Shown: positions 9,666-35,513 of the stretch, in pieces
How the letters are laid out: each line of letters begins with the position of its first letter
Position numbering within the stretch: the stretch's first letter is position 1
Source: Chamaelirium japonicum
Taxonomy: Eukaryota > Streptophyta > Magnoliopsida > Liliales > Melanthiaceae
DNA: 64,000 nt
Assembly (NCBI GenBank): GCA_947650365.1
Contig: OX393555.1
Location: forward strand, 84,201,995-84,265,994
Direction: 5' to 3'
Translations under genes and position numbers: made by a program
The notes under the pieces: model-generated
What the model was told of the DNA's origin: nothing
What the model saw: the letters and a program-made list of their open reading frames with translations, nothing else
Databases searched by the model: none

Positions 9666-9722
9666 GGATCGTACGAATGAATTAGAATGGATCGTACGAA
9701 TAAACTAGAATGGATACATTCG
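9666..9722 (+). repeat. F block 11, two to three monomers
   Basis: A very short F island entered through CGTACGGATCGTACG and left at ATTCGTACG. It contains a GAATAAACTAG monomer and a 28-mer type end. Confidence 0.85.
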
Positions 9723-12906: not shown

Positions 12907-13730
12907 TTCATTCTAATTCATTCATACAATCCATTCTAATTCTTTCACACGATCCATTCTAATTCATTCGTACGATCCACTCTTACTCATTGGTACGATC
13001 CATTCTAATTCATTCGCACAAATGTATCCATTCTAATTCATTCTTACGAATCCATTCTAATTCATTCGTACAATCTATTCTATTCCATTCTAATTCATTC
13101 GTACGATCCATTCTTACTCATTCGTACGAACCATTCTAATTCATTCGTACGATCCATTCTATTCTAGTTCATTCGTACGATCTATTCTAATTCTTTCGTA
13201 TGATCCATTCTTATTCATTCTTACACATTCGTATGATCCATACTAATTCATTCGGACGAATGTATCCATTCTAATTTATTCGTACGATCCATTCTAATTC
13301 ATTCGTACGATCCATTCTAATTCATTCGTAAGATCCATTCTAATTCATTCGTACGATCCATTCTAATTCATTCGTACGATCCATTCTAATTCATTCGTAC
13401 GATCCATTCTAATTCATTCATACGATCTATTCTAATTCATTCATTCGTACGATCCATTCTAATTCATTCGTACGATCCATTCTAATTCATTCGCACGATC
13501 CATTCTAATTCATTCATAGGATCCATTCTAATTCATTCGTACAATCCATTCTAATTCTTTTATACGATCCATTCTAATTCATTCGTACGATCCATTCTAA
13601 TTCACTCATACGATCCATTCTAATACATTCATACGATCCATTCTAATTCATTTGCACGAATATATCCATTCTAATTCATTCGTACGATCCATTCTAATTC
13701 ATTCGTATGATCCATTCTAATTCCTTCGTA
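12907..13730 (-). repeat. R block 16
   Basis: Contains several truncated joins (CTATTCCATTC near 13080, CTATTCTAG near 13155) that break the 23-bp register. It also carries the ACTCATACG-AATACATTC-AATATATCC trio near 13605-13670. Confidence 0.88.
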
Positions 13731-14462
13731 CAAATGAATTAGAATGGATACATTTGTGCGAATGAATTAGAATGCATCGTACGAATGAATTAGAATGGAT
13801 CGTATGAATGAATTAGAATGGATCGTACGAATGAATTAGAATGGATCTTACGAATGAATTAGAATGGATCGTACGAATGAATTAGAATGCATCGTACGAA
13901 AGAATTAGAATGGATATATTCGTGCGAATGAATTAGAATGGATCGTACGAATGAATTAGACTGGATCGTACAAATGAATTTGAATGGATACATTTGAGCG
14001 AATGAATCTAAATGGATTGTATGAATGAATTACAATGGATCGTACGAATGAATTAGAATGGATCGTACGAATGAATTAGAATAACTCATACGAATGAATT
14101 AGAATGAATCGTATGAATGAATTAGAATGGTTATATTCGTGCGAATGAATTAGAATAGATCGTACGAATGAATTAGAATGGATCGTACGAATAAATTAGA
14201 ATGGATCGTGGGAATGAATTAGAATGGATCGTACGAATGAATTAGAATGGATTCACCGAATGAGTTAGAATGGATCATACGAATGAATTAGAATGGATTG
14301 TACGAATGAATTAGAATGGATTGTGCGAATGAATTAGAATGGATCGTATGAATGAATAAGAATGGATCGTACGAATGATTTAGAATGGATCGTGCGAATG
14401 AATTAGCATGAATCGTACGAATGTATTAGAATGGATCGTACGAATGAATTAGAATGAATCGT
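13731..14462 (+). repeat. F block 17
   Basis: Copy of block 7 about 7.07 kb away: same TAAATGG, CCGAATGAGTT (here TTCACCG) and TAGCATGAATCG monomers in the same order. Confidence 0.9.
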
Positions 14463-15217
14463 ACGATCCATTCTAATTCAATCGTCTGATCCATTCTAAT
14501 TCATTCGCATGAATGTATCCATTCTAATTCATTCGTACAATCCATTCTATTTCATTCGTACGATCCATTCTTACTCATTCGTATGATCCATTCTAATTCA
14601 TTCGTATGATCCATTCTAATTCATTCGTACAATCCATTCTAATTCATTCGTACGATCCATTCTAATTCATTCGCACGATCCATTCTAATTCATTCATACG
14701 ATCCATTCTAATTCATTCATACGATCCATTCTAATTCATTCCTACAATCCATTCTAATTCATTCACCCGATCCATTCTAATTCATTCATACGATCCATTC
14801 TATTCGAATGGATCATGCGATCAATTCGAATTCATTCGTACGATCCATTCTAATTCATTCATATAATCCATTCTAATTCATTCATACAATGCATTCTAAT
14901 TCTTTGACACGATCCATTCTAATTCATTCGTACGATCCATTTTAATTCATTCGTACAATCCATTCTATTTCATTTGTACGATCCATTCTTACTCATTCGT
15001 ATGATCCATTCTAATTCATTCGTATGATCCATTCTAATTCATTTGTACGATCCATTCTAATTCATTCGTACAATCCATTCTATTTCATTCGTACGATCCA
15101 TTCTTACTCATTCGTATGATCCATTCTAATTCATTCGCACGAATGTATCTATTCTAATTCATTCATACAATCCATTCTAATTCATTCTGTACGATCCATT
15201 CTAATTCATTCGTACGA
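14463..15217 (-). repeat. R block 18
   Basis: Copy of block 8 with about five extra monomers. Hairpin element at 14802-14831. Ends at the centre of the 58-bp palindrome 15189-15246. Confidence 0.9.
14802..14831 (-). repeat. 30-bp hairpin element, one arm mismatch
   Basis: The right arm reads GATCAATTCG, one mismatch. Loop ATGC. Confidence 0.9.
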
Positions 15218-15246
15218 TCGTACGAATGAATTAGAATGGATCGTAC
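15189..15246. repeat. 58-bp perfect palindrome at an E switch
   Basis: Same E centre as at 8017-8036. Perfect for 29 bp each side. Confidence 0.9.
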
Positions 15247-16253
15247 GAATGAATTAGAATAGATTGAGCGAATGAATTAGAATGGATCGTACGAATGAAT
15301 TAGAATGGATCGTACGAATGAATTAAAATGGATCGTACGAATGAGTAAGAATGGATCGTACGAATGAATTAGAATGGATCGTACGAATGAATTAGAATGG
15401 ATCGTACGAATAAATTAGAATGGATATATTCGTCCGAATGAATTAGAATGGATCATACGAATGAGTAAGAATGGATCGTACGAATGAAATAGAATGGATA
15501 GTGCGAATAAATTAGAATGGACCGTACGAATGAATTAGAATGGATACATTCGTGCGAATGAATTAGAATGGATCGGACGAATGAATTAGAATGGATCGTA
15601 CGAATGAATTAGAATGGATCGTACGAATGAATGAATTAGAATAGATCGTATGAATGAATTAGAATGGATCGTCCGAATGAATTAGAATGGATCGTACGAA
15701 TGAATTAGAATGGATCATACGAATGAATTAGAATGGATCGTACGAATGAATTAGAATGGATTGTGCGAATGAATTAGAATGGACCGTACGAATGAATTAG
15801 AATGGATACATTCGTGCGAATGAATTAGAATGGATCGGACGAATGAATTAGAATGGATCGTACGAATGAATTAGAATGGATCGTACGAATAAATTAGAAT
15901 GGATACATTCGTCCGAATGAATTAGAATGGATCATACGAATGAGTAAGAATGGATCGTACGAATGAAATAGAATAGATTGTACGAATGAATTAGAATGGA
16001 TCCTACGAATGAATTAGAATGGATCGTGTGAAAGAATTAGAATGGATTATATGAATGAATTAGAATTGATCGTGCGAATGAATTAGAATGGATCGTACGA
16101 ATGAATTAGAATGGATCGTGCTAATGAATTAGAATTGATCGAACGAATGAATAAGCATGGATCGTGGTAATAAATTAGAATAGAACGTACGAATGAATTA
16201 GAAAGGATCGTGTGAAAGAATTAGAATGGATTGTATGAATGAATTAGAATGAA
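15218..16253 (+). repeat. F block 19
   Basis: Holds two 28-mer/CGGACG units near 15.54 and 15.81 kb in closely similar contexts about 270 bp apart, a nearly full m1-m7 run near 15.90-16.06 kb, and the left half of the FB-minus module at 16113. Confidence 0.9.
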
Positions 16254-16477
16254 TTCGTACGATCCATTCGAATTCATTCGCATGATCCATTCTAAATCAT
16301 TCATACGATCCATTCTAATTCATTCATACAATCCATTCTAATTCTTTCACACGATCCATTCTAATTCATTCGTAGGATCCATTCTAATTCATTCGTACAA
16401 TCTATTCTATTTTATTCGTGCGATCCATTCTTACTCATTCGTATGATCTATTCTAATTCATTCGGACGAATGTATCC
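16113..16477 (-). repeat. FB-minus fold-back module, 365 bp
   Basis: Complete copy. Inverted cassette 16266-16477 is 212 bp. x-type GTGCTAATG and GATCGAACG monomers lie at left. Confidence 0.92.
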
Positions 16478-16692
16478 ATTCTAATTTATTCGTACGATCC
16501 ATTCTAATTCATTCGTACGATCCATTCTAATTCATTCATATGATCCATTCTAATTCATTCGTTCGATCCATTCTAATTCAATCGCACGAATGTATCCATT
16601 CTAATTCATTCGTACGGTCCATTCTAATTTATTCGCACAATGCATTCTATTTCATTCGTACGATCCATTCTTACTCATTCGTATGATCCATT
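16254..16692 (-). repeat. R block 20
   Basis: Inverted m9'-m1' cassette at 16266-16477, followed by more monomers, ending at a D-type pivot CCATTATGG (16688-16696). Confidence 0.9.
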
Positions 16693-17189
16693 ATGGATAC
16701 ATTCGTGCGAATGAATTAGAATGGATCATATGAATGAGTAAGAATGGATCGTACGAATGAAATAGAATGGATTGTGCGAATGAATTAGAATGGATCGTAC
16801 GAATGAATTAGAATGGATCGTGTGAAAGAATTAGAATGGATTGTTTGAATGAATTAGAATAGATCGTATGAATGAATTTGAATGGATCATATGAATGAAT
16901 TAGAATGGATCGTACGAATGAAATAGAATGAATCGTACGAATGAATTAGAATGGATCTTACGAATGAATTCGAATGGATCGTACGAATGAATTAGAATGG
17001 ATCGTACGAATAAATTAGAATGGATACATTCGTCCGAATGATTAGAATGGATCATACGAATGAGTAAGAATGGATCGTACGAATGAAATAGAATAGATTG
17101 TACGAATGAATTAGAATGGATCCTACGAATGAATTAGAATAGATCGTGTGAAAGAATTAGAATGGATTGTATGAATGAATTAGAATGAA
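16693..17189 (+). repeat. F block 21
   Basis: Starts GGATACATTCGTGC after the D pivot and ends with the F arm (m1-m7) of the S hairpin at 17022. Confidence 0.9.
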
Positions 17190-17413
17190 TTCGTACGATG
17201 CATTCGAATTCATTCGCACGATCCATTCTAATTCATTCATACGATCCATTCTAATTCATTAATACAATCCATTCTAATTCTTTCACACGATCCATTCTAA
17301 TTCATTCGTAGGATCCATTCTAATTCATTCGTACAATCTATTCTAATACATTCGTACGATCCATTCTTACTCATTTGTATGATCCATTCTAATTCATTCG
17401 GACGAATGTATCC
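17022..17413 (-). repeat. S module: long hairpin with 165/166-bp arms
   Basis: m1-m7 in F (17022-17186, one base short), a 61-bp loop (17187-17247), then m7'-m1' in R (17248-17413). I count about six differences between the arms. Confidence 0.9.
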
Positions 17414-18249
17414 ATTCTAATTTATTCGTACGATCCATTCTAATTCATTCGTACGATCCATTCTAATTCATTCGTACGATCCATTTTAATTTATTCGTCC
17501 GATCCATTCTAATTCATTCGCACGAATGTATCTATTCTAATTCATTCGTACGATCCATTCTAATTTATTCGTACGATCCATTCTAATTCATTCGTCAGAT
17601 CCATTCTAATTCATTCGTACGATCCATTCTAATTCATTCGCACGAATGTATCCATTCTAGTTCATTCGTACGATCCATTCTAATTCATTCGTACGATCCA
17701 TTCTAATTCTTTCGTACGATCCATTCTAATTCATTCGTACGATCTATTCTAATTCATTCGTACGATCCATTCTAATTCATTCGTACGATCCATTCTAATT
17801 CCTTCGTATGATCCATTCTAATTCATTCGTACGATCCATTCTAATTCCTTCGTATGCATTCTAATTCACTCATACGATCCATTCTAATTCATTCGTACGA
17901 TCTATTCTAATTCATTCATACAATCCATTCTAATTCATTCGCACGAATGTATCCATTCTAATTCATTCGTACGATCAGTTCTAATTCATTCACAAAATCT
18001 ATTCTAATTCATTCATACGATCCATTCTAATTTATTCACACGAATGTATCCATTCTAATTCATTCATATGATCCATTCTAATTCATTCGTACGATCCATT
18101 CTAATTCACTCATACGATCCATTCTAATACATTCATACGATCCATTTTAATTCATTTGCACGAATATATCCATTCTATTTCATTCGTACGATCCATTCTT
18201 ACTCATTCGTACGATCCATTCTAATGCATTCACACGATTGTATCCATTT
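17190..18249 (-). repeat. R block 22
   Basis: Opens with the R arm of the S hairpin and includes the GATCAGTTC/ACAAAATC pair near 17968. It ends at a G-type switch, here with T in place of C (CCATTTGTACGAATG). Confidence 0.9.
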
Positions 18250-18735
18250 GTACGAATGAATTAGAATAGATTGTACGAATGAATTAGAATGGATCGTACG
18301 AATGAATTAGAATGGATCGTACAAAGGAATTAGAATGGATCGTATGAATGAATTAGAATGGATCGTACGAATGAACTAGAATGGATCGTACGAATGAATT
18401 AGAATGGATCGTACGAAGGAATTAGAATGGATCGTACGAATGAATTAGAATGGATATATTCGTGCAAATGAATTAGAATGGATCATATGAATGTATTAGA
18501 ATAGATCGTATGAGTGAATTAGATTGGATCGTACGAATGAATTAGAATGGATCGTATGAATGAATTAGAATGGATACATTCGTGCGAATGAATTAGAATT
18601 GATCGTACAAATGAATTAGAATGGATCGTGCGAATGAATTAGAATGGATCGAACGAATGAATTAGAATGGATCGTACGAATGAACTAGAATGGATACATT
18701 CGTGCGAATGAATTAGAATGGATCGTACGAATATA
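18250..18735 (+). repeat. F block 23
   Basis: Includes GAAGGAATTAG monomers and the TATATTCGTGCAAATG-GTATTAG-GAGTGAATTAG trio near 18440-18520. Its end matches window positions 1-130. Confidence 0.9.
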
Positions 18736-19206
18736 ATTCATTCCTACAATCCATTCTAATTCATTCGCCCGATCCATTCTAATTCATTCATACGATCCAT
18801 TCTATTCGAATGGATCATGCGATCCATTCGAATTCATTCGCACGATCCATTCTAATTCATTCATACGATCCATTCTAATTCATTCATACAATGCATTCTA
18901 ATTCATTCTAATTCATTCGTACAATCCATTCTAATTCATTCGTACAATCCATTCTATTTCATTTGTACGATCCATTCTTACTCATTCGTATGATCCATTC
19001 TAATTCATTCGTATGATCCATTCTAATTCATTTGTACGATCCATTCTAATTCATTCGTACAATCCATTCTATTTCATTCGTACGATCTATTCTTACTCAT
19101 TCGTATGATCCATTCTAATTCATTTGCACGAATGTATCCATTCTAATTCATTCATACAATCCATTCTAATTCATTCCGTACGATCCATTCTAATTCATTC
19201 GTACGA
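18736..19206 (-). repeat. R block 24
   Basis: Copy of block 2 displaced by about 18.6 kb. Hairpin element at 18804-18833. Ends at an E-type switch with one mismatch in the core. Confidence 0.9.
18804..18833 (-). repeat. 30-bp hairpin element
   Basis: Arms intact, loop ATGC. About 18.6 kb from the copy at 195-224, with matching flanks. Confidence 0.92.
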
Positions 19207-20073
19207 TCATACGAATGAATTAGAATGGATCGTACAAATGAATTAGAATAGATTGTGCGAATGAATTAGAATGGATCGTACGAATGAATTAGAATGGATC
19301 GTACGAATGAATTAGAATGGATCATACGAATGAGTAAGAATGGATCGTACGATTGAATTAGAATAGATCGTACGAATAAATTAGAATGGATACATTCTTC
19401 CGAATGAATTAGAATGGATCATACGAATGAGTAAGAATTGATCGTACGAATGAAATAGAATAGATTGTACGAATGAATTAGAATGGATCCTACGAATAAA
19501 TTAGAATGGATCGTGTGAAAGAATTAGAATGGATTGTATGAATGAATTAGAACGGATTCGTACGAATGAATTAGAATGTATACATTCGTGCGAATGAATT
19601 AGAATGGATCGTACCAATGAGTAAGAATGGATCGTACGAATGAAATAGAATGGATTGTGCGAATGAATTAGAATGGATCATACGAATGAATTAGAATGGA
19701 TCGTGTGAAAGAATTAGAATGGATTGTATGAATGAATTAGAATAGATCGTATGAATGAATTTGAATGGTTCGTACGAATGAATTAGAATGGATCATACGA
19801 ATGAATTAGAATGGATCGTACGAATGAATTAGAATGGATACATTCGTGTGAAAGAATTAGAATAGATCGTATAAATGAATTAGAATGGATCCTATGAATG
19901 AATTAGAATGGATCGTGCAAATGAATAAGAATGGATCGTACGAATGAATTAGAATTGATCGAACGAATGAATTAGCATGGATCGTGCTAATGAATTAGAA
20001 TGGAACGTACGAATGAATTAGAATGGATCGTGTGAAAGAATTAGAATGGATTATATGAATGAATTAGAATGAA
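19207..20073 (+). repeat. F block 25
   Basis: Copy of block 3, about two monomers shorter. Ends in the FB-minus module at 19933, whose first monomer has lost the GTGCTAATG variant. Confidence 0.9.
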
Positions 20074-20297
20074 TTCATACGATCCATTCGAATTCATTCT
20101 CACGATCCATTCTACTTCATTCATACGATCCATTCTAATTCATTCATACAATCCATTCTAATTCTTTCACACGATCCATTCTAATTCATTCGTAGGATCC
20201 ATTCTAATTCATTCGTACAATCTATTCTATTTCATTCGTACGATCCATTCTTACTCATTCGTATGATCAATCCTAATTCATTCGGACGAATGTATCC
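19933..20297 (-). repeat. FB-minus fold-back module, 365 bp
   Basis: Full length. The leftmost monomer reads GTACGAATG instead of GTGCTAATG. Inverted cassette 20086-20297. Confidence 0.9.
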
Positions 20298-21926
20298 ATT
20301 CTAATTTATTCGTACGATCCATTCTAATTCATTCGTACGATCCATTCTAATTCATTCGTCCGATCCATTCTAATTCATTCGCACGAAAGTATCCATTCTA
20401 ATTCATTCATACGATCCATTCTAATTCATTCGTACGATCCATTCTAATTCATTCGTAAGATCCATTCTAATTCATTCGTACGATCCATTCTAATTCATTC
20501 GTACAATCCATTCTAATTCATTCGCACGAATGTATCCATTCTAGTTCATTCGTACGATCCATTCTAATTCATTCGTACGATCCATTCAAATTCATTCGCA
20601 CGATCCATTCTAATTCATTCGTACGATCCATTCTAATTCATTCATACGATCCATTCTAATTCATTCGTACGATCCATTCTAATTCATTCGCACAAATGTA
20701 TCTATTCTAATTCATTCGTACGATCCATTCTAATTCATTCACACGATCCATTCTAATTCATTCGTACGATCCATTCTAATTCATTCGCACGATCTGTTCT
20801 TATTCATTCGCACAATCCATTCTAATTCATTCGCACGAATGTATCCATTCTAATTCATTTGTACGATCCATTCTAATTCATTTGTACGATCCATTCTAAT
20901 TCATTCGTATGATCCATTCTAATTCATTCGTACGATTCATTCTAATTCATTCGCACGATCTGTTCTTATTCATTCGCACAATCCGTTCTAATTCATTTGC
21001 ACGAATGTATCCATTCTAATTCATTCGTACGATCCATTCTAATTCATTTGTATGATCCATTCTAATTCATTTGTATGATCCATTCTAATTAATTCGTATG
21101 ATCCATTCTACTTCATTCGTACGATCTATTCTAATTCATTCATACAATCCATTCTAATTCATTCGCACGAATGTATCCATTCTAATTAATTCGTATGATC
21201 CATTCTAATTCATTCGTATGATCTATTCTTATTCATTCGCACGATCCAGTCTAATTGATTCGCACGATCCATTCTAATTCATTCGCATGAATGTATCAAT
21301 TCTAATTCATTCGTACGATCCATTCTAATTCATTAATATGATCCATTCTAATTCATTCGTATGATCCATTCTAATTCATATGCACAAAGGTATCCATTCT
21401 AATCCATTCGTAGGATCCATTCTAATCCATTCGTACGATCCATTCTAATTCATTCGCTCGAATGTATCCATTCTAATCCATTCGTACGATCCATTCTAAT
21501 CCATTCGTACGATCCATTCTAATTCATTCGCATGAATGTAACCATTCTAATTCATTCATTTGATCCATTCTAATTCATTCGTATGATCCATTCTAATTCA
21601 TTCGTCCGATCCATTCTAATTCATTCGCACGAATGTATCCATTCTAATTCATTCGTACGATCCATTCTAAATCATTCGTACGATCCATTCTAATTCATTC
21701 GTAAGATCCATTCTAATTCATTCGTACGATCCATTCTAATTCATTCGTACGATCCATTCTAATTCATTCGCACGAATATATCCATTCAAGTTCATTCCTA
21801 CGATCCATTCTAATTCATTCGTACGATCCATTCTAATTCATTCGCACGATCCATTCTAATTCATTCGTACGATCAATTCTAATTCATTCGCATGAATGTA
21901 TCCATTCTAATTCATTCGTACGATCC
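20074..21926 (-). repeat. R block 26
   Basis: Copy of block 4 with the same succession of 28-mers, GATCTGTTC, GATCCAGTC, AATATG and CACAAAGG monomers. Ends at an H-type switch. Confidence 0.9.
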
Positions 21927-22093
21927 TGAATTAGAATGGATCGTATGAATGAATTAGAATGGATACCTTTGTGCATATGAATTAGAATGGATCGTACGAA
22001 TGAATTAGAATGGATCATATTAATGAATTAGAATGGATCGTACGAATGAATTAGAATGTATACATTCGTGCGAATGAATTAGAATGGATCGTG
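21927..22093 (+). repeat. F block 27 (H island)
   Basis: 167-bp island with the same monomer order as 3381-3546, 18546 bp downstream at both edges. Confidence 0.9.
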
Positions 22094-23306
22094 CACAAAT
22101 GTATCCATTCTAATTCATTCGTACGATCCATTCTAATTCATTAATATGATCCATTCTAATTCATTCGTACGATCCAGTCTAATTCATATGCACAAAGGTA
22201 TCTATTCTAATCCATTCGTAGGATCCATTCTAATCCATTCGTACGATCCATTCTAATTCATTCGCTCGAATGTATTCATTCTAATCCATTCGTACGATCC
22301 ATTCTAATCCATTCGTACGATCCATTCTAATCCATTCGTACGATCCATTCTAATTCATTCGCATGAATGTAACCATTCTAATTCATTCATTTGATCCATT
22401 CTAATTCATTCGTACGATCCATTCTAATTCACTCGTCCGATCCATTCTAATTCATTCGCACGAATGTATCCATTCTAATTCATTCGTACGATCCATTCTA
22501 ATTCATTCGTACGATCCATTCTAATTCATTCGTACGATCCATTCTAATTCATTCGCACGAATGTATCCATTCTAGTTCATTCGTACGATCCATTCTAATT
22601 CATTCGTACGATCCATTCTAATTCATTCGCACGATCCATTCTAATTCATTCGTACGATCAATTCTAATTCATTCGCACGAATGTATCCATTCTAATTCAT
22701 TCATACGATCCATTCAAATTCATTCATACGATCCATTCTAATTCATTCGTACGATCCATTCTAATTCATTCGTACGATCTATTCTAATTCATTCGCACGA
22801 ATGTATCCATTCTAGTTCATTCGTACGATCCATTCTAATTCATTCGCACGATCCATTCTAATTCATTCGTACGATCAATTCAAATTCATTCGTACGATCC
22901 ATTCTAATTCACTCATACGATCCATTCTAATACATTCATACGATCCATTCTAATTCATTTGCACGAATATATCCATTCTAATTCATTCGTACGATCCATT
23001 CTAATTCCTTCGTATGACCATTCTAATTCATTCGTACGATCTATTCTAATTCATTCGTATGATCCATTCTAATTCATTCGTACGATCCATTCTAATTATT
23101 TCATACGATCCATTCTAATTCATTCGTACGATCCATTCTAATTCATTCATACAATCTATTCTAATTCTTTCACACGATCCATTCTAATTCATTCGTACGA
23201 TCCATTCAAATTCATTCGTGCAATCCATTCTATTTCATTCGTACGATCCATTCTTACTCATTCGTACGATCCATTCTAATTCATTCACACGAATGTATCC
23301 ATTCGT
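22094..23306 (-). repeat. R block 28
   Basis: The first about 440 bp continue the match to 3547-3960, then diverge. Carries the ACTCATACG-AATACATTC-AATATATCC trio near 22910-22975. Ends at a G-type switch with ATTCGTACGAAT at 23301-23312. Confidence 0.9.
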
Positions 23307-24751
23307 ACGAATGAATTAGAATCGATTGTACGAATGAATTAGAATGGATCGTACGAATGAATTAGAATGGATCGTACGATGGAATTAGAATGGATCGTAC
23401 GAATGAATTAGAATAGATCGTACGAATGAATTAGAATAGATCGTATGAATGAATTAGAATGGATCGTACGAAGGAATTAGAATGAATCGTACGAATGAAT
23501 TAGAATGGATATATTCGTGCAAATGAATTAGAATGGATCGTATGAATGTATTAGAATGGATCGTATGAGTGAATTAGAATGGATCGTACGAATGAATTAG
23601 AATGGATTGTATGAATTAATTAGAATGGATCGTACGAATGAATTAGAATGGATCATACGAATTAATTAGAATGGATCATACCAATGAATTAGAATGGATC
23701 GTACGATTGAATTAGAATGGATCGTACGAAAGAATTAGAATGGATACATTCGTGCGAATGAATTAGAATGGATTGTGCGAAAGAATAAGAACAGATCGTG
23801 CGAATGAATTAGAATGGATCGTACGAATAAATTAGAATGGATCGTGGTGCGAATGAATTAGAATGGATCGTACGAATGAATTAGAATGGATACATTTGTG
23901 CGAATGAATTAGAATGGATCGTACGAATGAATTAGAATGGATCGTATGAATGAATTAGAATGGATCGTACGAATGAATTAGAATGGATCATGCGAATGAA
24001 TTAGAATGGATCGTACGAATGAATTAGAATGGATCGTGTGAAAGAATTAGAATGGATCGTACGAATGAATTAGAATGGATCGTGCGAATGAATTAGAATG
24101 GATCGTACGAATGAATTAGAATGGATACATTTGTGCGAATGAATTAGAATGGATCGTACAAATGAATTAGAATGGATCGTATGAATGAATTAGAATGGAT
24201 CGTACGAATGAATTAGAATGGATCGTGCTAATGAATTATAATGGATCGTACGAATGAATTAGAATGGATCGTACGAATGAACTAGAATGGATACATTCGT
24301 GCGAATGAATTAGAATGGATCGTACGAATGAATTAGAATGGATCGTACGAATAAATTAGAATGGATCTTACGAACGAATTAGAATGGATCGTATGAATGA
24401 ATTAGAATGGATCGTACGAATAAATTAGAATGGATACATTCGTGCGAATGAATTAGAATGGATCGGACGAATGAATTAGAATGGATCGTACGAATGAATT
24501 AGAATGGATCGTACGAATAAATTAGAATGGATACATTCGTCCGAATGAATTAGAATGGATCATACGAATGAGTAAGAATGGATCGTACGAATGAAATAGA
24601 ATAGATTGTACGAATGAATTAGAATGGATCCTACGAATAAAATAGAATGGATCGTGTGAAAGAATTAGAATGGATTGTATGAATGAATTAGAATGGATCG
24701 TATGAATGAATTAGAATGGATCGTGCAAATGAATTCGAATGGATCGTACGA
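23307..24751 (+). repeat. F block 29
   Basis: 1.4 kb of F monomers starting with GAAGG-type and TATATTCG trio monomers, with several 28-mers, ending in a complete FB-plus module at 24529. Confidence 0.9.
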
Positions 24752-24893
24752 ATTCATTCTAATTCATTCATACAATCCATTCTAATTCTTTCACACGATC
24801 CATTCTAATTCATTCGTACGTTCCATTCTAATTCATTAGCACGATCCATGCTAATTCATTCGTTCGATCAATTCTAATTCATTAGCACGATCC
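24529..24893 (+). repeat. FB-plus fold-back module, 365 bp (type copy)
   Basis: Cassette 24529-24740: m1 28-mer with GTCCG, m2 CATACG/AGTAAG, m3 AAATAG, m4 TTGTACG, m5 CCTACG, m6 GTGTGAAAG, m7 TTGTATG, m8 CGTATG, m9 TTCGAAT. Spacer 24741-24755. Inverted monomers 24756-24893. Confidence 0.93.
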
Positions 24894-25291
24894 ATTCTAA
24901 TTCATTCGTATGATCCATTCTAATTCATTCGCACGATCCATTCTAATTCATTCATAGGATCCATTCTAATTCATTCATACGATCTATTCTAATTCTTTCG
25001 CACGAATGTATCCATTCTAATTCATTCGTACAAATGTATCCATTTTAATTCATTCGTACGATCCATTCTAATTCATTCGTACAATCCATTCTAATTCATT
25101 CATACAATCTATTCTAATTCATTCATACAATCCATTCTAATTCTTTCACACGATCCATTCTAATTCATTCGTACGATCCATTCTAATTCATTCGCATAAT
25201 CCATTCGCATAATCCATTCTATTTCATTCGTACGATCCATTCTTACTCATTCGTATGATCCATTCTAATTCATTCACACGAATGTATCCAT
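24752..25291 (-). repeat. R block 30
   Basis: Begins with the inverted part of the FB-plus module and ends at the D' pivot CCATAATGG (25288-25296), the reverse complement of the D pivots elsewhere. Confidence 0.9.
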
Positions 25292-25444
25292 AATGGATCA
25301 TACAAATGAGTAAGAATGGATCGTACGAATGAAATAGAATGGATTGTGCGAATAAATTAGAATGGACCGTACGAATGAATTAGAAAGGATACATTCGTGC
25401 GAATAAATTAGAATGGATCATACGAATGAGTAAGAATGGATCGT
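25292..25444 (+). repeat. F block 31
   Basis: Short island with two AGTAAG monomers. It ends abruptly at GATCGTCATTC, where F and R monomers are joined out of register. Confidence 0.87.
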
Positions 25445-28187
25445 CATTCTAATTCATTCGTATGATCCATTCTAATTCATTTGTATCCATTCTATTTCAT
25501 TCGCACGATCCATTTTAATTCATTCGCGCAATCTATTCTAATTCATTTGTACGATCCATTCTAATTCATTCGTACGATCCATTCTAATTCTTTCATACAA
25601 TCCATTCTAATTTATTCGCACGAATGTATCCTTTCTAATTCATTCGTACGATCCATTCTAATTCATTCGTACAATCTATTCTAATTCATTCATACGATCC
25701 ATTCTAATTCATTCGCACGAATGTATCCATTCTAATTCATTCATACGATCCATTCTACTTCATTCATACTATCCGTTCTAATTCACTCATACGATCCATT
25801 CTAATTCATTCATACGATCCATTCTAATTCATTTGCACGAATATATCCATTCTAATTTATTCGTACGATCCATTCTAATTCCTTCGTACGATCCATTCTA
25901 ATTCCTTCGTACGATCCATTCTATTTCATTCGTAAGATCCATTCTAATTCCTTCGTATGATCCATTCTAATTCCTTCGAATCCATTCTAATTCACTCATA
26001 CGATCCATTCTAATTCATTCGTACGATCCATTCTAATTCATTCATACAATCCATTCTAATTCATTCGCACGAATGTATCCATTCCAATCCATTCGTACGA
26101 TCCATTCTAATTCATTCGTACGATCCATTCTAATTCATTCGCATGAATGTAACCATTCTAATTCATTCATTTGATCCATTCTAATTCATTCGTACGATCC
26201 ATTCTAATTCATTCGTACGATCTATTCTAATTCATTCGCACGAATGTATCCATTCTAGTTCATTCATACGATCCATTCTAATTCATTCGTACGATCCATT
26301 CTAATTCATTCGCACGATCCATTCTAATTCATTCGTACGATCCATTCTAATTCATTCATACGATCCATTCAAATTCATTCGTACGATCCCTTCTAATTCA
26401 TTCGCACAAATGTATCCATTCTAATTCATTCGTACGATCCATTCTAATTCATTCGCACGATCCATTCTAATTCACTCTAATTCATTCGTACGATCCATTC
26501 TAATTCATTCGTACGATCCATTCTTACTCATTCGTATGATCCATTCTAATTCATTCGTACGATCCATTCTAATTCATTCGCACGAATGTAACCATTCTAA
26601 TTAATTCGTACGATCCATTCTAATTCATTCGCACAAATGTATCCATTCTAATTAATTCGTACGATCCATTCTAATTCATTCGCACGATCCATTCTAATTC
26701 ATTCGTACGATCTATTCTAATTCTTTCACACGATCCATTCTAATTCATTCGTACGATCCATTCTAATTCATTCGCACGATCCATTCTAATTCATTCATAG
26801 GATCAATTCTAATTCATTCATACGATCTATTCTAATTCTTTCGCACGAATGTATCCATTCTAATTCATTCGCACGAATGTATCAATTCTAATTCATTCGT
26901 ACGATCCATTCAATTTCATTCGTACGATCCATTCTAGTTCATTCGTACGATCCATTCTAATTCATTCGTACGATCCATTCTAATTCATTCGTATGATCCA
27001 TTCTAATTAATTCGTATGATCTATTCTAATTCATTCGTACGATCCATTCTAATTCATTCATACAATCCATTCTAATTCATTCGCACGAATGTATCCATTC
27101 TAATTAATTCGTACGATCCATTCTAATTCATTCGTATGATCCATTCTTACTCATTCGCACGATCCAGTCTAATGGATTCGCACAATCCATTCTAATTCAT
27201 TCGCACGAATGTATCCATTCTAATTCATTCGTACGATCCATTCTAATTTATTAATATGATCCATTCTAATTCATTCGTACGATCCATTCTAATTCATATG
27301 CACAAAGGTATCCATTCTAATCCATTCGTAGGATCCATTCTAATTCATTCGTACGATCCATTCTAATTCATTCGTAAGATCCATTCTAATTTATTCGTAC
27401 GATCCATTCTAATTCATTCGCACGAATGTATCCATTCTAGTTCATTCGTACGATCCATTCTAATTCATTCGTACGATCCATTCTAATTCATTCGTACGAT
27501 CCATTCTCATTCATTCGTATGATCCATTCTAATTAATTCGTACGATCCATTCTCATTCATTCGTACGATCCATTCTCATTCATTCGTACGATCCATTCTA
27601 ATTCATTCGTACGATCCATTCTAATTCACTCATACGATCCATTCTAATACATTCATACGATCCATTCTAATTCATTTGCACGAATATATCCATTCTAATT
27701 CATTCGTACGATCCATTCTAATTCCTTCATACGATCCATTCTAATTCATTCGTACGATCTATTCTAATTCATTCGTACGATCCATTCTAATTCTTTCGTA
27801 CGATCCATTCTAATTTCTTCGTACGATCCATTCTAATTCATTCGTACGATCCATTCTAATTCATTCGTAGGATCCATTCTAATTCATTCGTGCAATCTAT
27901 TCTATTTCATTCGTACGATCCATTCTTACTCATTCGTATGATCCATTCTAATTCATTCGGACGAATGTATCCATTCTAATTTATTGGTACGATCCATTCT
28001 AATTCATTCGTACGATCCATTCTAATTCATTCGTATGATCCATTCTAATTCATTCGTCCGATCCATTCTAATTCATTCGCACGAATGTATCCATTCTAAT
28101 TCATTCGTACGGTCCATTCTAATTCATTCGCACAATCCATTCTATTTCATTCGTACGATCCATTCTTACTCATTCGTATGATCCATT
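25445..28187 (-). repeat. R block 32
   Basis: 2.7 kb of R monomers holding CTACTTC/ACTATCCG (25753), AACCATTC and CACAAAGG (27303) variants and the ACTCATACG trio near 27630. It ends at a D pivot (28183-28191). Confidence 0.9.
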
Positions 28188-29017
28188 ATGGATACATTCG
28201 TGCAAATGAATTATAATGGATCATACGAATGAGTAAGAATGGATCGTACGAATTAAATAGAATGGATTGTGCGAATGAATTAGAATGGATCGTACGAATG
28301 AATTAGAATGGATCGTGTGAAAGAATTAGAATGGATTGTATGAATGAATTAGAATAGATCGTATGAATGAATTAGAATGGATCGTACGAATGAATTAGAA
28401 TGGATCGTACGAATGAACTAGAATGGATACATTCGTGCGAATGAATTAGAATGGATCGTACGAATGAATTAGAATGGGTCATACGAATGAATTAGAATGG
28501 ATCATACGAATGAGTAAGAATGGATCGTACGAATGAAATAGAATGGATTGTACGAATGAATTAGAATGGATCGTACGAATGAATTAGAATGGATCGTGTG
28601 AAAGAATTAGAATGGATTGTATGAATGAATTAGAATGGATCATATGAATGAATTAGAATGAATCGTGCGAATGAATTCGAATGGATCGTACGAATGAATT
28701 AGAATGGATCGAACGAATGAATTAGAATGGATACATTCGTGCGAATGAATTAGAATGGATACATTCGTGCAAAAAAATTAGAATAGATCGTATGAATGAA
28801 TTAGAATGAATCCTATGAATGAATTAGAATGGATCGTGCGAATGAATTAGAATGGATCGTACGAATGAATTAGAATGGATCGTGCTAATGAATTAGAATT
28901 GATCAAACAAATGAATTAGCATGGATCGTGCTAATGAATTAGAATGGAACGTATGAATGAATTAGAATGGATCGTGTGAAAGAATTAGAATGGATTGTAT
29001 GAATGAATTAGAATGAA
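28188..29017 (+). repeat. F block 33
   Basis: Opens like block 21 after the same D pivot and ends in the left half of the short FB-minus module at 28877. Confidence 0.9.
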
Positions 29018-29218
29018 TTCGTACGATCCATTCGAATTCATTCGCACGATCCATTCTAATTCATTCATACGATCCATTCTAATTCATTCATATAATCCAT
29101 TCTAATTCTTTCACACAATCCATTCTAATTCATTCGTACAATCTATTCTATTTCATTCGTACGATCCATTCTTACTCATTCGTATGATCCATTCTAATTC
29201 ATTCGGACGAATGTATCC
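28877..29218 (-). repeat. FB-minus fold-back module, 342 bp
   Basis: As the others, but the m5' (GTAGG) monomer is missing, making the cassette 189 bp (29030-29218): exactly one 23-bp unit lost. Confidence 0.9.
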
Positions 29219-29349
29219 ATTCTAATTCATTCGTACGATCCATTCTAATTCTTTAATATGATTCATTCTAATTCATTCGTACGATCCATTCTAATTCATA
29301 TGCACAAAGGTATCCATTCTAATTCATTCGTACGATCCATTCTAATTCA
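29018..29349 (-). repeat. R block 34
   Basis: Opens with a 189-bp cassette (the m5' monomer is absent). Contains AATATG/CACAAAGG and ends at a K-type switch (AATTCAGGATCG), the reverse complement of H. Confidence 0.9.
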
Positions 29350-30541
29350 GGATCGTACGAATGAATTAGAATCGATACATTCGTGCGAATGAATTAGAAT
29401 TGATCGTACGAATAAATTAGAATGGATCGTGCAAATGAATTAGAATGGATCGTACGAATGAATTAGAATGGATCGTATGAATGAACTAGAATGGATACAT
29501 TCGTGCGAATGAATTAGAATGGATCGTACGAATGAATTAGAATTGATCGTACGAATGAATTAGAATGGATCTTACGAATGAATTAGATTGGATTGTGCGA
29601 ATGAATTAGAATGGACCGTACGAATGAATTAGAATGGATCGTATGAATGAATTAGAATGGATACATTCGTGCGAATGAATTAGAATGGATCGGACGAATG
29701 AATTAGAATGGATCGTACGAATGAATTAGTATGGATCAAATGAATGAATTAGAATGGTTATATTCATGAGAATGAATTAGAATGGATCGTACGAATGGAT
29801 TAGAATGGATCGTACGAATGAATTAGAATGGATCATACAAATGAGTAAGAATGAATCGTACGAATGAATTAGAATGGATACATTTGTGCGAATGAATTAG
29901 AATGGATCGTACGAATGAATTAGAATGGATACATTTGTGCGAATGAATTAGAATGGACCGTACGAATGAATTAGAATGGATCGTATGAATGAATTAGAAT
30001 GGATCGTACGAATGAATTAGAATGGATCGTACGAATAAATTAGAATGGATCGTACGAATGAATTAGACTGGATCGTACGAATGAATCTAAATGGATTGTA
30101 TGAATGAATTACAATGGATCGTACGAATGAATTAGAATGGATCGTACGAATGAATTAGAATAGCTCATACGAATGAATTAGAATGAATCGTATGAATGAA
30201 TTAGAATGGTTACATTCGTGCGAATGAATTAGAGTAGATCGTATGAATGAATTAGAATTGATCGTACGAATAAATTAGAATGGATCGTGGGAATGAATTA
30301 GAATGGATCGTACCAATGAATTAGAATGGATCCACCGAATGAGTTAGAATGGATCATACGAATGAATTAGAATGGATTGTACGAATGAATTAGAATGGAT
30401 TATGTGAATGAATTAGAATGGATCGTATGAATGAATAAGAATGGATCGTACGAATAAATTAGAATGGATCGTGCGAATGAATTAGCATGAATCGTACGAA
30501 TGTATTAGAATGGATCGTACGAATGAATTAGAATGAATCGT
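29350..30541 (+). repeat. F block 35
   Basis: Contains the AAATGAATG-GTTATATTCATG pair near 29735. Its second half repeats the order of blocks 7 and 17 (TAAATGG, CCACCGAATGAGTT near 30330, TAGCATGAATCG). Confidence 0.9.
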
Positions 30542-31336
30542 ACGATCCATGCTAATTCATTCGCACGAATGTATCCATTCTAGTACATTCGTACGATCCA
30601 TTCTAGTTCATTCGTACGATCCATTCTAATTCATTCGTACGATCCATTCTAATTCATTCGTATGATCCATTCTAATTAATTCGTATGATCCATTCTAATT
30701 CATTCGTACGATCCATTCTAATTCATTCATACCATCTATTCTAATTCATTTACACGAATGTATCCATTCTAATTAATTCGAACAATCCATTCTAATTCAT
30801 TTGTATGATCCATTCTTATTCATTCGCACGATCCAGTCTAATGGATTCGCACGATCCATTCTCATTCATTCGCACGAATGTATCGATTCTAATTCATTCG
30901 TACGATCCATTCTAATTCATTAATATGATCCATTCTAATTCATTCGCACGATCCATTCTAATTGATTCGTACGATCAATTCTAATTCATTCGTACGATCC
31001 ATTCTAATTCATTCGCACGATCCATTCTAATTCATTCGTACAATCTATTCTATTTCATTCGTACGATCCATTCTTACTCATTCGTATGATCCATTCTAAT
31101 TCATTCGGACGAATGTATCCATTCTAATTTATTCGTACGAACCATTCTAATTCATTCGTACGATGCATTCTAATTCATTCGTACGATCCATTATAATTCA
31201 TTCGTCCGATCCATTCTAATTCATTCGCACGAATGTATCCATTCTAATTCATTCATACGGTCCATTCTAATTCATTCGCACAATCCATTCTATTTCATTC
31301 GTACGATCCATTCTTACTCATTCGTATGATCCATTA
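30542..31336 (-). repeat. R block 36
   Basis: Contains GATCCAGTC, GGACGAATG and CTATTTC-CTTACTC monomers. Ends at a D pivot (31331-31339). Confidence 0.9.
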
Positions 31337-31683
31337 TGGATACATTCGTGCGAATGAATTAGAATGGATCATACGAATGAGTAAGAATGGATCGTACAAA
31401 TGAAATAGAATGGACTGTGCGAATGAATTAGAATGGATCGTACGAATGAATTAGAATGGATCGTGTGAAAGAATTAGAATGGATTGTATCAATGAATTAG
31501 AATAGATCGTATGAATGAATTAGAATGGATCGTACGAATGAATTAGAATGGATCGTAAGAATGAACTAGAATGGATACATTCGTGCGAATGAATTAGAAT
31601 GGATCGTACGAATGAATTAGAATGGATCGTACGAATGAATTAGAATGGATCTTACGAATGAATTATAATGGATCGTACAAATG
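31337..31683 (+). repeat. F block 37
   Basis: Third copy of the post-D F segment (compare 16693 and 28188). Ends at ATGCACGATCC, joined to FB-derived x monomers in R. Confidence 0.88.
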
Positions 31684-32275
31684 CACGATCCATGCTAATT
31701 CATTCGTTCGATCAATTCTAATTCATTAGCACCATCCATTCTAATTCATTCGTACGATCCATTCTAATTCATTCGCACGATCCATTCTAATTCATTCGTA
31801 CGATCCATTCTAATTCTTTCACACGATCCATTCTAATTCATTCGTACAATCCATTCTAATTCATTCGTAAGATCTATTCTAATTCATTCGTACGATCCAT
31901 TCTAATTTCATTCGTACGATCCATTCTAATTCATTCGCTCGAATATATCCATTCTAATCCATTCGTATGATCCATTCTAATTTATTCGCATGAATGTCAC
32001 CATTCTAATTCATTCATTTGATTCATTCTAATTCATTCGTACGATCCATTCTAATTCATTCATCCGATCCATTCTAATTCATTCGCACGAATGTATCCAT
32101 TCTAATCCATTCGTAAGATCCATTCTAATTCATTCGTACGATCCATTCTAATTCATTCGTACGATCCATTCTAATTCATTAATATGATCCATTCTAATTC
32201 ATTCGTACGATCTATTCTAATTCATATGCACAAAGGTATCCATTCCAATTCATTCGTACGATTCATTCTAATTCA
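31684..32275 (-). repeat. R block 38
   Basis: Begins with x3/x4-type monomers (CATGCTAATTC, GTTCGATCA, TTAGCACC) detached from any FB junction. Ends at a K-type switch. Confidence 0.88.
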
Positions 32276-33077
32276 GGATCGTACGAATGAATTAGAATGG
32301 ATACATTCGTGCGAATGAATTAGAATTGATCGTACGAATGAATTAGAATGGATCGTGTGAATGAATTAGAATGGATCGTACGAATGAATTAGAATGGATC
32401 GTACGAATGAACTAGAATGTATACATTCGTGCGAATGAATTAGAATGGATCGTACGAATGAATTAGAATGGATCGTACGAATGAATTAGAATGGATCTTA
32501 CGAATGAATTAGAATGGATCGTACGAATGAATTAGAATGGATACATTCGTGCGAATGAATTAGAATGGATCAGACGAATGAATTTGAATGGATCGTACGA
32601 ATGAATTAGAATGGATCAAATGAATGAATTAGAATGGTTACATTCATGCGAATGAATTAGAATGGATCGTACGAATGGATTAGAATGGATCGTACGAATG
32701 GATTAGAATGGATACATTCGAGCGAATGAATTAGAATGGATCGTACGAATGAAATTAGAATGGATCGTACGAATGAATTAGAATAGATCGTACGATTGAT
32801 TTAGAATGGATCGTACGAATGAATTAGAATAGAACGTACGAATAAATTAGAATGGATACATTCGTCCGAATGACTTAGAATGGATCATACACATGAGTAA
32901 GAATGGATCGTACGAATGAAATAGAATAGATTGTACGAATGAATTAGAATGGATCCTACGAATGAATTAGAATGGATCGTGTGAAAGAATTAGAATGGAT
33001 TGTATGAATGAATTAGAATGGATCGTATGAATGAATTAGAATGGATCGTGCGAATGAATTCAAATGGATCGTACGAA
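32276..33077 (+). repeat. F block 39
   Basis: Contains AAATGAATG-GTTACATTCATG near 32620, a GAACGTACGAATAAATTAG monomer and the FB-plus cassette 32854-33065. It is the first half of the 1.14-kb tandem duplication. Confidence 0.9.
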
Positions 33078-33218
33078 TTCATTCTAATTCATTCATACAA
33101 TCCATTCTAATTCTTTCACACGATCCATTCTAATTCATTCGTACGTTCCATTCTAATTTATTAGCACGATCCATGCTAATTCATTCGTTCGATCAATTCT
33201 AATTCATTAGCACGATCC
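32854..33218 (+). repeat. FB-plus fold-back module, 365 bp
   Basis: Cassette 32854-33065 with GACTTAG in m1 and TTCAAAT in m9, differences shared with 33969 and 39627. Confidence 0.92.
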
Positions 33219-33377
33219 ATTCTAATTCATTCGTACGATCCATTCTAATTCATTCGAACGATCCATTCTAATTCATTCGTACGATCCATTCTAATTCATT
33301 CGTACGATCCATTCTAATTAATTCGTACGATCCATTCTAATTCATTCGTACGAATGTATCCATTCTAGTTCATTTGT
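33078..33377 (-). repeat. R block 40
   Basis: Inverted part of the FB-plus module followed by six monomers, ending at the L switch (CATTTGTACGAATGAAATAG). Confidence 0.9.
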
Positions 33378-34191
33378 ACGAATGAAATAGAATAGATTGT
33401 ACGAATGAATTAGAATAGATTAGAATGAATTAGAATGGATCGTGTGAAAGAATTAGAATGGATCGTACAAATGAATTAGAATGGATTAGAATGGATCGTG
33501 CGAATGAATTAGAATGGATCGTACGAATGCATTAGAATGGATTGTATGAATGAATTAGAATGGATCTTACGAATGAATTAGAATGGATCGTACGAATGAA
33601 TTAGAATGGATCGTACGAATGAATTAGAATGGATCTTACGAATGAATTAGAATGGATCGTACGAATGAATTAGAATGGATACATTCGTGCGAATGAATTA
33701 GAATGGATCGGACGAATGAATTAGAATGGATCAAATGAATGAATTAGAATGGTTACATTCATGCGAATGAATTAGAATGGATCGTACGAATGGATTAGAA
33801 TGGATCGTACGAATGGATTAGAATGGATACATTCGAGCGAATGAATTAGAATGGATCGTACGAATGAAATTAGAATGGATCGTACGAATGAATTAGAATA
33901 GATCGTACGAATGAATTAGAATGGATCGTACGAATGAATTAGAATAGAACGTACGAATAAATTAGAATGGATACATTCGTCCGAATGACTTAGAATGGAT
34001 CATACCAATGAGAAAGAATGGATCGTACGAATGAAATAGAATAGATTGTACGAATGAATTAGAATGGATCCTACGAATGAATTAGAATGGATCGTGTGAA
34101 AGAATTAGAATGGATTGTATGAATGAATTAGAATGGATCGTATGAATGAATTAGAATGGATCGTGCGAATGAATTCAAATGGATCGTACGA
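33378..34191 (+). repeat. F block 41
   Basis: Begins with GAAATAG and a shortened GGATTAGAATG join, then repeats block 39 with one monomer fewer. FB-plus cassette at 33969-34180. Confidence 0.9.
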
Positions 34192-34333
34192 ATTCATTCT
34201 AATTCATTCATACAATCCATTCTAATTCTTTCACACGATCCATTCTAATTCATTCGTACGTTCCATTCTAATTTATTAGCACGATCCATGCTAATTCATT
34301 CGTTCGATCAATTCTAATTCATTAGCACGATCC
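33969..34333 (+). repeat. FB-plus fold-back module, 365 bp
   Basis: Tandem sister of 32854-33218. Shares GACTTAG and TTCAAAT. Cassette 33969-34180. Confidence 0.92.
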
Positions 34334-34515
34334 ATTCTAATTCATTCGTACGATCCATTCTAATTCATTCGTACGATCTATTCTAATTCATTCGTACGAT
34401 CCATTCTAATTCATTCGTACGATCCATTCTAATTCATTCGTACGATCCATTCTAATTAATTCGTATGATCCATTCTAATTCATTCGTACGAATGTATCCA
34501 TTCTAGTTTATTTGT
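34192..34515 (-). repeat. R block 42
   Basis: Repeat of block 40 with one monomer more, ending at the second L switch (TATTTGTACGAATGAAATAG). Confidence 0.9.
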
Positions 34516-35039
34516 ACGAATGAAATAGAATAGATTGTACGAATGAATTAGAATGGATTATAATGAATTAGAATAGATCGTGTGAAAGAATTAGAATGGA
34601 TCGTACAAATGAATTAGAATGGATTAGAATGGATCGTGCGAATGAATTAGAATGGATCGTACGAATGCATTAGAATGGATTGTATGAATGAATTAGAATG
34701 GATCGTGCGAACGAATTAGAATAGATCGTACGAATGAATTAGAATGGATCTTACGAATGAATTAGAATGGATCTTACGAATGAATTAGAATGGATCGTAC
34801 GAATGAATTAGAATAGCTCATACGAATGAATTAGAATGAATCGTACGAATGAATCAGAATGGATCGTATGAATGAATTAGAATGCATACATTCGTGCGAA
34901 TGAATTAGAATGGATCGTATGAATGAATTAGAATAGATTTTGTGAATGAATTAGAATGGATCGTACGAATGAATTAGAATAGATCCTATGAAGTAGAATG
35001 GATCGTACGAATTAATTAGAATGGAAACATTCGTGCGAG
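34516..35039 (+). repeat. F block 43
   Basis: Its first about 190 bp match 33378-33578, closing the tandem duplication. Ends with a shortened GATCCTATGAAGTAG monomer and an AAACATTCG 28-mer variant. Confidence 0.88.
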
Positions 35040-35086
35040 CACAAAGGTATCCATTCTAATTCATTCGTACGATCCATTCTAATTCA
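35040..35086 (-). repeat. R block 44, two monomers
   Basis: Isolated R fragment reading CACAAAGGTATCC through AATTCAGGATCG. It is the exact reverse complement of the start of the H islands, so this is a K junction preserved with only two monomers. Confidence 0.9.
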
Positions 35087-35513
35087 GGATCGTACGAATA
35101 AATTAGAATGGATATATTCGTGCAAATGAATTAGAATGGATCGTATGAATGAATTAGAATGGATCGTATAAGTGAATTAGAACGGATAGTACGAATGAAG
35201 TAGAATGGATCGTATGAATGAATTAGAATGGATATATTCGTGCGAATGAATTAGAATGGATCATATGAATGAATTAGAATAGATTGTGCGAATGAATTAG
35301 AATGGATCATACGAATGAATTAGAATGGATACATTCGTACGAATAAATTAGAATGGATTGTATGAATGAATTAGAATGGATCGTACGAATGAATTAGAAT
35401 GGATCGTACGAATGAATTAGAATAGATTGCGCGAATGAATTAGAATGGATCGTGCGAATGAAATAGAATGGATACAAATGAATTAGAATGGATCATACGA
35501 ATGAATTAGAATG
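35087..35513 (+). repeat. F block 45
   Basis: Carries GAACGGATAGTACG and GAAGTAG monomers near 35180, the reverse complement of CTACTTC/ACTATCCG in R blocks. Ends in an out-of-register join ATGACGATCC. Confidence 0.88.

Follow-up and report, generated by a model that had tools for sequence, protein, structure and literature searches.

Satellite arrays in which the strand changes frequently are known; how a single strand switch is born, and how it then rises across a genome, is an open question. It is posed in a concrete form by the 64,000-bp stretch analysed here, called the window throughout (C7:84,201,995-84,265,994 of an assembly of 1.519 Gb in 3253 contigs). A preliminary description, made from the letters of the window, had picked out a 365-bp module at 16 of the 40 switches from forward to reverse runs (F>R), and had proposed that this module is itself the unit of amplification. 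The explanation that we consider probable, though well short of certain, is that the module is a fossil fold-back inversion junction in a centromeric minisatellite, which was later made asymmetric and has spread mostly inside larger segments.

The satellite and its recurring junction

A satellite with a unit of 23 bp spans the window nearly end to end (Tandem Repeats Finder), a 28-bp monomer form is recognisable by eye, and an independent two-state segmentation places 80 strand changes, 40 F>R and 40 from reverse to forward (R>F).

1..64000, no strand assigned: Chio-type satellite array, 23-bp monomer with 28-bp variants, in 81 runs of alternating strand

In Chionographis japonica the satellites Chio1 (23 bp) and Chio2 (28 bp) have been reported to be distinguished from each other by a 5-bp indel and a single base, and to form mixed forward and reverse arrays (PMC10264360), and the 9-mer TTCGTACGA is the motif given for Chio in PMC12722358. 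The window likewise has a 23-bp monomer and a 28-bp variant with a 5-bp indel and one substitution, TTCGTACGA lies inside its monomer, and mixed-orientation arrays occur on many chromosomes. Matched in this way to the published description rather than to consensus letters, the satellite is very probably Chio1/Chio2, and the window very probably centromere DNA of Chionographis japonica, a species in which the CENH3-interacting share amounts to about 17% of the genome and the contigs total 1,526,137,861 bp (PMC10264360). On scaffold C7 the satellite was present in all seven samples between 83.0 and 84.4 Mb, and the samples at 84.7 and 85.2 Mb were not satellite; degenerate TTTAGGG-like letters, as a plant would have, were seen by eye at the scaffold end, and C7:1-6000 reads as N throughout, either a gap or withheld sequence. 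Rfam gave zero matches in the window, and a bacterial-type scan of positions 24000-26000, which carries little weight in a plant, gave 12 promoter-like sites against 15.5 in shuffles and no terminator-like sites.

The copies of the module in the window take an asymmetric full form or a symmetric form, termed S:

24529..24893, + strand: fold-back module, full form, the copy of the original finding (by gapless alignment and identity)
8208..8572, + strand: full form
32854..33218, + strand: full form, near the rare-variant subfamily, not an exact match of its 44-mer
33969..34333, + strand: full form, rare-variant subfamily, 1115 bp after the 32854 copy
39627..39991, + strand: full form, rare-variant subfamily
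48653..49017, + strand: full form
1365..1729, - strand: full form
16113..16477, - strand: full form
19933..20297, - strand: full form
42662..43026, - strand: full form
54389..54753, - strand: full form
28877..29218, - strand: full form minus one 23-bp monomer
36707..36905, + strand: partial copy; this part is consensus-identical, the left arm is different
17049..17413, - strand: S form, ungapped symmetry stopping near module position 28
37680..38044, - strand: S form, the most symmetric copy of the window
57080..57444, + strand: S form

The structural claims of the preliminary description stand. All eleven copies that it had called full lie where it placed them and align without gaps at exactly 365 bp, which upholds the fixed order and length of their monomers; they are 95.1-99.7% identical to one another and 97.3-99.2% identical to their consensus, the 99.9th percentile of ungapped matches across the window being 0.76-0.77. 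A 43-bp junction sequence, allowed up to 3 mismatches, matches the window at exactly 16 places, as many as the F>R switches at which a junction had been seen. The copy at 28877, said to be one monomer short, lacks exactly one 23-bp monomer (342 bp); that at 36707, said to be partial, is identical to the consensus from 36707 to the module end and differs in its left arm; and the three copies described as S forms, at 17049 (-), 37680 (-) and 57080 (+), are 93-95% identical. A seventeenth switch, at 12904, resembles the module mainly on its right side.

At its own scale the module is the most repeated piece of the window. Chunks of 368 bp that overlap it by at least 250 bp have a mean of 10.1 copies at 93% identity or above (n=80 chunks), against 1.97 for chunks that overlap it by at most 30 bp (n=1153), with divergence from the satellite consensus alike in both sets (0.106 and 0.110), and the maximum is 14 copies for the module against 11 among 1128 module-free chunks. 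At a scale of 184 bp it is not at the top: its switches have 13-16 copies, and other places reach up to 84. Nor is the order of its core monomers exclusive to it, as 24 additional places in the window match the following six-monomer core at 0.95 or better (rounded):

24557..24695, + strand: six-monomer core cassette, module positions 29-167, also found outside the module

Two places outside the module, at 4970-5108 and 60079-60217 on the minus strand, carry this cassette with 100% identity to the consensus.

Counting in the rest of the genome, a check that the preliminary description had called for, located the 43-bp junction (up to 3 mismatches) at 23,325 places, 11,663 forward and 11,662 reverse, with 0 in a reversed-letter control, and an exact 179-bp half of the module at 718 plus-strand and 698 minus-strand places. 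This corresponds to about one junction per 10.5 kb of satellite, the latter estimated at 16.11% of 1.519 Gb, whereas the window has one every 4 kb. The junctions are unevenly distributed: they make up 26 of 97 F>R switches in the window and the loci not picked by the module, but just 1 of 25 in the eight of these array loci that lie outside C7, which weighs against the reading that we prefer. In this census, L032 (0.48 satellite) and L038 (no satellite) were omitted, L020-L028 were counted separately since they were not blindly chosen, and L029-L037 have round coordinates near places already indicated by an earlier genome search. An apparent strand bias at C1:1.37-2.50 Mb, where 50 of 50 among the matches listed were on the plus strand, was rejected, as exact minus-strand copies occur there.

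Segments that carry the junction

The further analysis used 43 copies (31 full, 12 S) from fetched loci and the window itself, all at 93% identity or above to the window consensus; the tight identity of their core is thus partly built in, and the short and partial copies at 28877 and 36707 are absent owing to the same threshold. Copies from five loci (L039-L043) that were picked via a rare variant are included among the 31 full ones and in the 903 copy pairs, and are omitted from diversity, tree, nearest-relative and flank-versus-identity counts.

Across the 903 pairs, homology continues past the 365 bp by a median of 417 bp to the left and 158 bp to the right; it ends within 25 bp of the module edge in 31 pairs on the right and in 0 on the left. 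The length of 365 bp is not a natural boundary of homology. A flank profile from 27 of the 37 copies with long flanks (6 of the 43 had too little flank) shows a conserved block from about -310 to +612 around the module. The nearest relative of a copy lies on its own scaffold in 14 of 33 cases, the shuffled mean being 16.4 (sd 3.9) for this set of copies from C7 (21), C1 (11) and C18 (1).

Larger pieces recur as well. The rare module variant has 26 exact places, on C5, C6, C7, C8, C32 and C200, 16 of which make 8 pairs 1092, 1115 or 1138 bp apart, a spacing that resembles that of the copies at 32854 and 33969 in the window (1115 bp). Five rare-variant surroundings, compared with window 28.5-38.5 kb, are 98.5, 98.9, 98.7, 97.9 and 96.0% identical over 6412, 6849, 6634, 5535 and 4785 aligned bp, respectively. 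A locus about 147 kb from its match (L014, C7:84100000-84109999) repeats 18 switches of window 45.5-55.7 kb with their order kept, 17 of them with the same family label, at 95.8% identity to window 45503-55718 over 7754 aligned bp and with changed strand-run lengths. Of the 24 chunks of 500 bp in six 2-kb samples from C7:1.765-1.824 Mb, 22 have best matches that follow the window collinearly but inverted, running from 63.8 kb to 3.3 kb, with an identity of 0.978-0.998 for 21 of these and of 0.936 for the other, and the remaining 2 find their best match elsewhere; at C5:84.464-84.488 Mb, 7 of 8 chunks are collinear with window 48.9-23.4 kb. As a baseline, chunks of the window compared with the rest of the window find a best match with a median of 0.909 (n=32). 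Blocks of 5 kb recur elsewhere at 96-99% identity and so, judged from samples, do blocks of up to about 60 kb.

The junction is moreover one of several that are abundant. An R>F type has 15,184 places (7453 and 7731 on the two strands) and another F>R type 16,103 (8166 and 7937). In a census that includes some loci not blindly chosen, the module family accounts for 46 of 136 F>R switches, the next-largest family for 7, and the largest families among 139 R>F switches have 20, 17, 15, 11 and 10 members. Twelve families with at least 5 members have mean pairwise identities of 0.89-0.99 over 46 bp on each side of the junction, a high level that is favoured by clustering on near-junction similarity; conservation in family b2 is lower than in the rest. 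Identity decays outward in A0, b0, b1, A1 and A4, and in b3 on the right, and does so slightly in b2, b5, b6, A2 and A3. What sets the module apart from other junctions is mainly its number.

The preliminary interpretation is borne out in part. The module's fixed order and length, its rank as the top 368-bp repeat and its genome-wide occurrence are supported; the proposal that it is the amplified unit in its own right finds partial support at most, as homology runs past the module edges, the core is also found outside the module, other junctions are abundant and larger blocks recur. A version in which a module of about 365 bp to 1 kb was copied as a unit, via short gene-conversion tracts or small circles, would explain why copies that are 98.6-99.7% identical (11 pairs) have a median total matching flank of just 766 bp and why many different junction types adjoin the module. 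It would also accommodate the observation that identity and flank length are hardly related (Spearman 0.09), which speaks against spread inside larger segments and leaves room for tracts of about 1 kb moving alone, although changes in strand-run length likewise shorten flank extensions. Against such unit copying, the edges of homology vary between pairs and mostly do not lie at 365 bp, module pairs and blocks of several kb or more recur jointly, and the other junction families behave similarly; we regard it as rather unlikely.

Symmetric and asymmetric forms

The case for spread of a fold-back junction rests on the S form, in which each left-arm position p has its partner at 394-p in the right arm. 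In the most symmetric copy of the window, coordinates derived by hand from this pairing are:

37583..37818, no strand assigned: S-form arm, module positions 227 to 462
37819..37877, no strand assigned: S-form loop, 59 bp
37878..38113, no strand assigned: other S-form arm, module positions 167 down to -68

In the consensus of 10 S copies (L021_6314 and L023_3327 were omitted here and from the arm mismatch count), 235 of 236 bases agree between the arms, from p = 167 to p = -68, on either side of a 59-bp loop. Past the right edge of the module lie 85 of these 236 positions, and in the consensus of all 12 S copies 85 of 85 agree. The arms of the S consensus are thus inverted copies of one sequence, as a fold-back inversion would leave them. 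Individually, 7 of the 12 S copies hold a symmetry of at least 0.83 out to -68 in an ungapped test, and 5 lose it before that point, which counts against a fold-back origin. In all 31 full copies symmetry is 0.91-1.00 at positions 121-166, 0.65-0.83 at 29-97 and at most 0.48 at -22 to 0. The division is less sharp when gaps are allowed, and this too tells against our reading: gapped arm scores overlap (120-278 in S, 41-148 in full), and the gapped arms of full copies exceed 200 bp in 14 of 31 and end at 64-83 bp in the other 17. A further point on that side is that no priming short inverted repeat was recognised by eye at the base of the loop, within module positions 150-240.

Mismatches between the arms of single S copies (41 of 1390, or 2.9%, in 10 copies) are about as frequent as differences between copies (2.65%), which suggests that the fold-back is of about the same age as the spread. 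Variant sites are almost never mirrored in the opposite arm (1 of 70 sites in the 12 S copies and 0 of 20 in the 31 full ones), so that the arms have not corrected one another, and correction from arm to arm via a hairpin was rejected. Fold-back birth is shown for the module only, as mirror scores at the other switches do not rise above those of random pairing. The 95% point of the null is exceeded, among all switches, at 14 of 128 F>R, mostly module cases, and at 9 of 135 R>F. A fold-back origin of all switches was rejected, since the arm symmetry of the others is no better than random pairing.

Genome-wide, the asymmetric form is the commoner one, with 12,442 full against 3,659 S places (up to 3 mismatches over 134 bp in each case). 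Double counting is impossible because the two 134-bp patterns differ at 8 positions, and the S count is somewhat low as its pattern and the S consensus disagree at module position 273 (C in the pattern, T in the consensus). Together the two forms make 16,101 of the 23,325 junctions, the other 7,224 being neither form at that stringency. Exact S places occur on C1, C2, C3, C4, C5, C7, C10 and C12 and on many smaller contigs.

These observations bear on the idea that selection keeps the module because its hairpin or loop serves the centromere, for example as a landmark for CENH3 or replication. The core is very highly conserved (in copies pre-selected at 93%), the module is predicted to fold strongly as a single strand (-115.5 kcal/mol, z -20, for one stretch), and the authors of PMC13081366 read conserved inversion sites of Tribolium madens in a similar way. 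Such folding is not special to the module, as another switch has a predicted fold of -145.5 (z -27), a plain array stretch being weak at -42.3 (z -5; one stretch each), and folding strength was for that reason rejected as the cause of the module's success. Furthermore, the commoner form is the less symmetric one, the near-absence of mirrored variants means that compensating changes in the arms are lacking, and the module is scarce in several of the sampled arrays. Selection for such a role we therefore think unlikely, and a function is not required for the observed pattern.

The asymmetry of the full form may be traced to sequence found elsewhere in the arrays:

5498..5562, + strand: plain R-run, module-free, in which 65 of 65 bases match the full form's outer right arm

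Four plain R-run places (window 5498, L015 9265, L024 6170 and L025 4347) match the full consensus at 0.93-0.96 over module positions 274-300, at 0.98-1.00 over 301-365 and at 0.85-0.98 over 366-457, and in one of them a match of 0.87-0.93 continues to position 595; inward of position 250 the same four places match at just 0.33-0.42. Among all matches to the outer arm, 39 of 103 are without the junction, a figure that includes some register-shifted matches of one place, at least 4 places that retain the module's inner right arm, and window 36518, which adjoins the partial copy. Since the R-run match breaks where S and full diverge, S is the likelier ancestor and the full form a copy with a swapped right side; plain R runs could in principle also have been derived from a full copy.

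The opposite order, in which the full form is older and S arose later as the left arm was copied onto the right through a hairpin, gains from the equal diversity of the two forms (0.0265 among 12 S, 0.0267 among 21 full copies) and from a tree of 33 copies that is without resolution and nests neither form in the other, an outcome that weighs against our own reading. It is countered by the fact that the outer right arm and flank of the full form are those of plain R runs without the module, with the break at 250-274, and that S symmetry reaches past the module edges. We hold this order to be decidedly improbable.

Proposed origin and comparison with known systems

In the fold-back origin that we favour, a stretch of F strand containing the six-monomer cassette would have been copied back onto itself, either where a broken end folded back or where a stalled fork switched strands. 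The product would be an inverted duplication, its arms at least 236 bp long and its loop 59 bp: the S form. The outer right arm of one copy would then have been exchanged, from about position 274, for an R-strand stretch present elsewhere in the arrays without the module, yielding the full form; the direction of this step is the likely one rather than a certain one. Both forms are found over many scaffolds, to which they would have been carried mostly by segment copying and exchange, on scales of about 1 kb to several kb and, from samples, also of 25-60 kb. The full form may outnumber S by chance or through the instability of long near-perfect palindromes; longer and more similar arms with shorter spacers have been associated with greater risk to genome stability (reviewed in PMC7999016).

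A bolder variant would make the junction a self-favouring, conversion-driven selfish centromere element, in which S provokes breaks and templated repair and so seeds other chromosomes, and the asymmetric derivative escapes palindrome instability and takes over. We give this little credence; if it were true, the counts of S and full would record the process.

Finally, that the repetition is an artefact of assembly (duplicated or misplaced haplotigs, or chimeric palindromic reads) is scarcely credible: an inverted near-copy at about 99% identity at the other end of C7 does resemble a misplaced second haplotype, and the published primary assembly of 1.526 Gb exceeds the measured 1C of 1368 Mb (PMC10264360), but 16 differently flanked copies in one window, together with the rare variant's occurrences on C5, C6, C7, C8 and two other contigs, cannot all be put down to two haplotypes, and one shared 59-bp loop, present thousands of times, would not be expected of read chimeras. 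The near-copy itself covers most of the window (3307-63800) and lies in the sampled region C7:1765001-1824000 (L044-L049 and L040); it may have come from exchange involving two end units, or be a second haplotype that was misplaced, an explanation that could not hold for all of the places on C5, C6, C7 and C32.

Two familiar kinds of element were rejected as models. In higher-order repeats of the alpha-satellite type, variant monomers stand in fixed order and copies of high identity follow one another head to tail with a constant period. The module shares the fixed order of variant monomers and the high identity, but its starts are 936-7905 bp apart, in both orientations and with no constant period. 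Foldback transposons have inverted arms of short tandem repeats, like the module, together with defined ends and insertion with target duplication; no edge of the module in foreign sequence was seen, satellite lies on both sides of it, and homology passes its edges in nearly all 903 pairs.

The nearest known case is that of the conserved satellite inversion sites of Tribolium madens, where inversion points of putatively (peri)centromeric satellites are conserved at 98.2-98.9% in thousands of copies, with no pronounced contig-specific clustering and with possible hairpins, and spread by exchange has been proposed (PMC13081366). The present module resembles them in that one junction is conserved in thousands of copies (23,325 at up to 3 mismatches in 43 bp, 12,442 at up to 3 in 134 bp) and that the nearest-relative counts given above show no contig-specific clustering. 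It differs in being a single dominant F>R junction, with numerous lesser ones and several R>F types beside it, in belonging to a 23-bp plant minisatellite, and in that the symmetric birth form is outnumbered by an asymmetric one. Fold-back inversions at DNA breaks in yeast, described with inverted repeats separated by 6-bp and 35-bp spacers, likewise have two inverted arms and a short spacer (59 bp in the module); unlike the module, which measures a few hundred bp within a satellite, occurs in thousands of copies and has no recognised primer repeat, they are large chromosome rearrangements, frequent in repair mutants (PMC10622511). For Chionographis, the accessible portions of PMC10264360 and PMC12722358 do not describe a recurring fold-back module or its two forms, and, among the papers listed, titles and abstract openings contain no other plain description of such a module. 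The cluster CL73 of Kuo et al. (PMC10264360) may be related to the module or overlap with it.

Since newborn-like S and altered full forms coexist in thousands of copies, public reads make it possible to measure how old exchange among centromere units is, which way it ran and over what scale. The junction can serve as a probe for exchange among the approximately 100 centromere units reported for this holocentric plant, and also to ask whether CENH3 treats inversion points differently.

Some further observations concern the other switches. Centred on the dyad TCGTACGA are 19 of 136 F>R switches, for example at window 7386, 14462, 30541 and 46693, perhaps independent switches at the same 8-bp palindrome; the register of the module junction is one off. 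The R>F junction with 15,184 places is exemplified in the window at 40145, 45503, 52173 and 56034, and the one that was tested outfolds the module. On C1, among the matches listed, places of this R>F junction at 2.51-2.55 Mb and 2.68-2.72 Mb are offset by about 164-170 kb with inner steps of about 3.0-3.3 kb, which suggests a duplicated block of about 33-39 kb with a local higher-order repeat.
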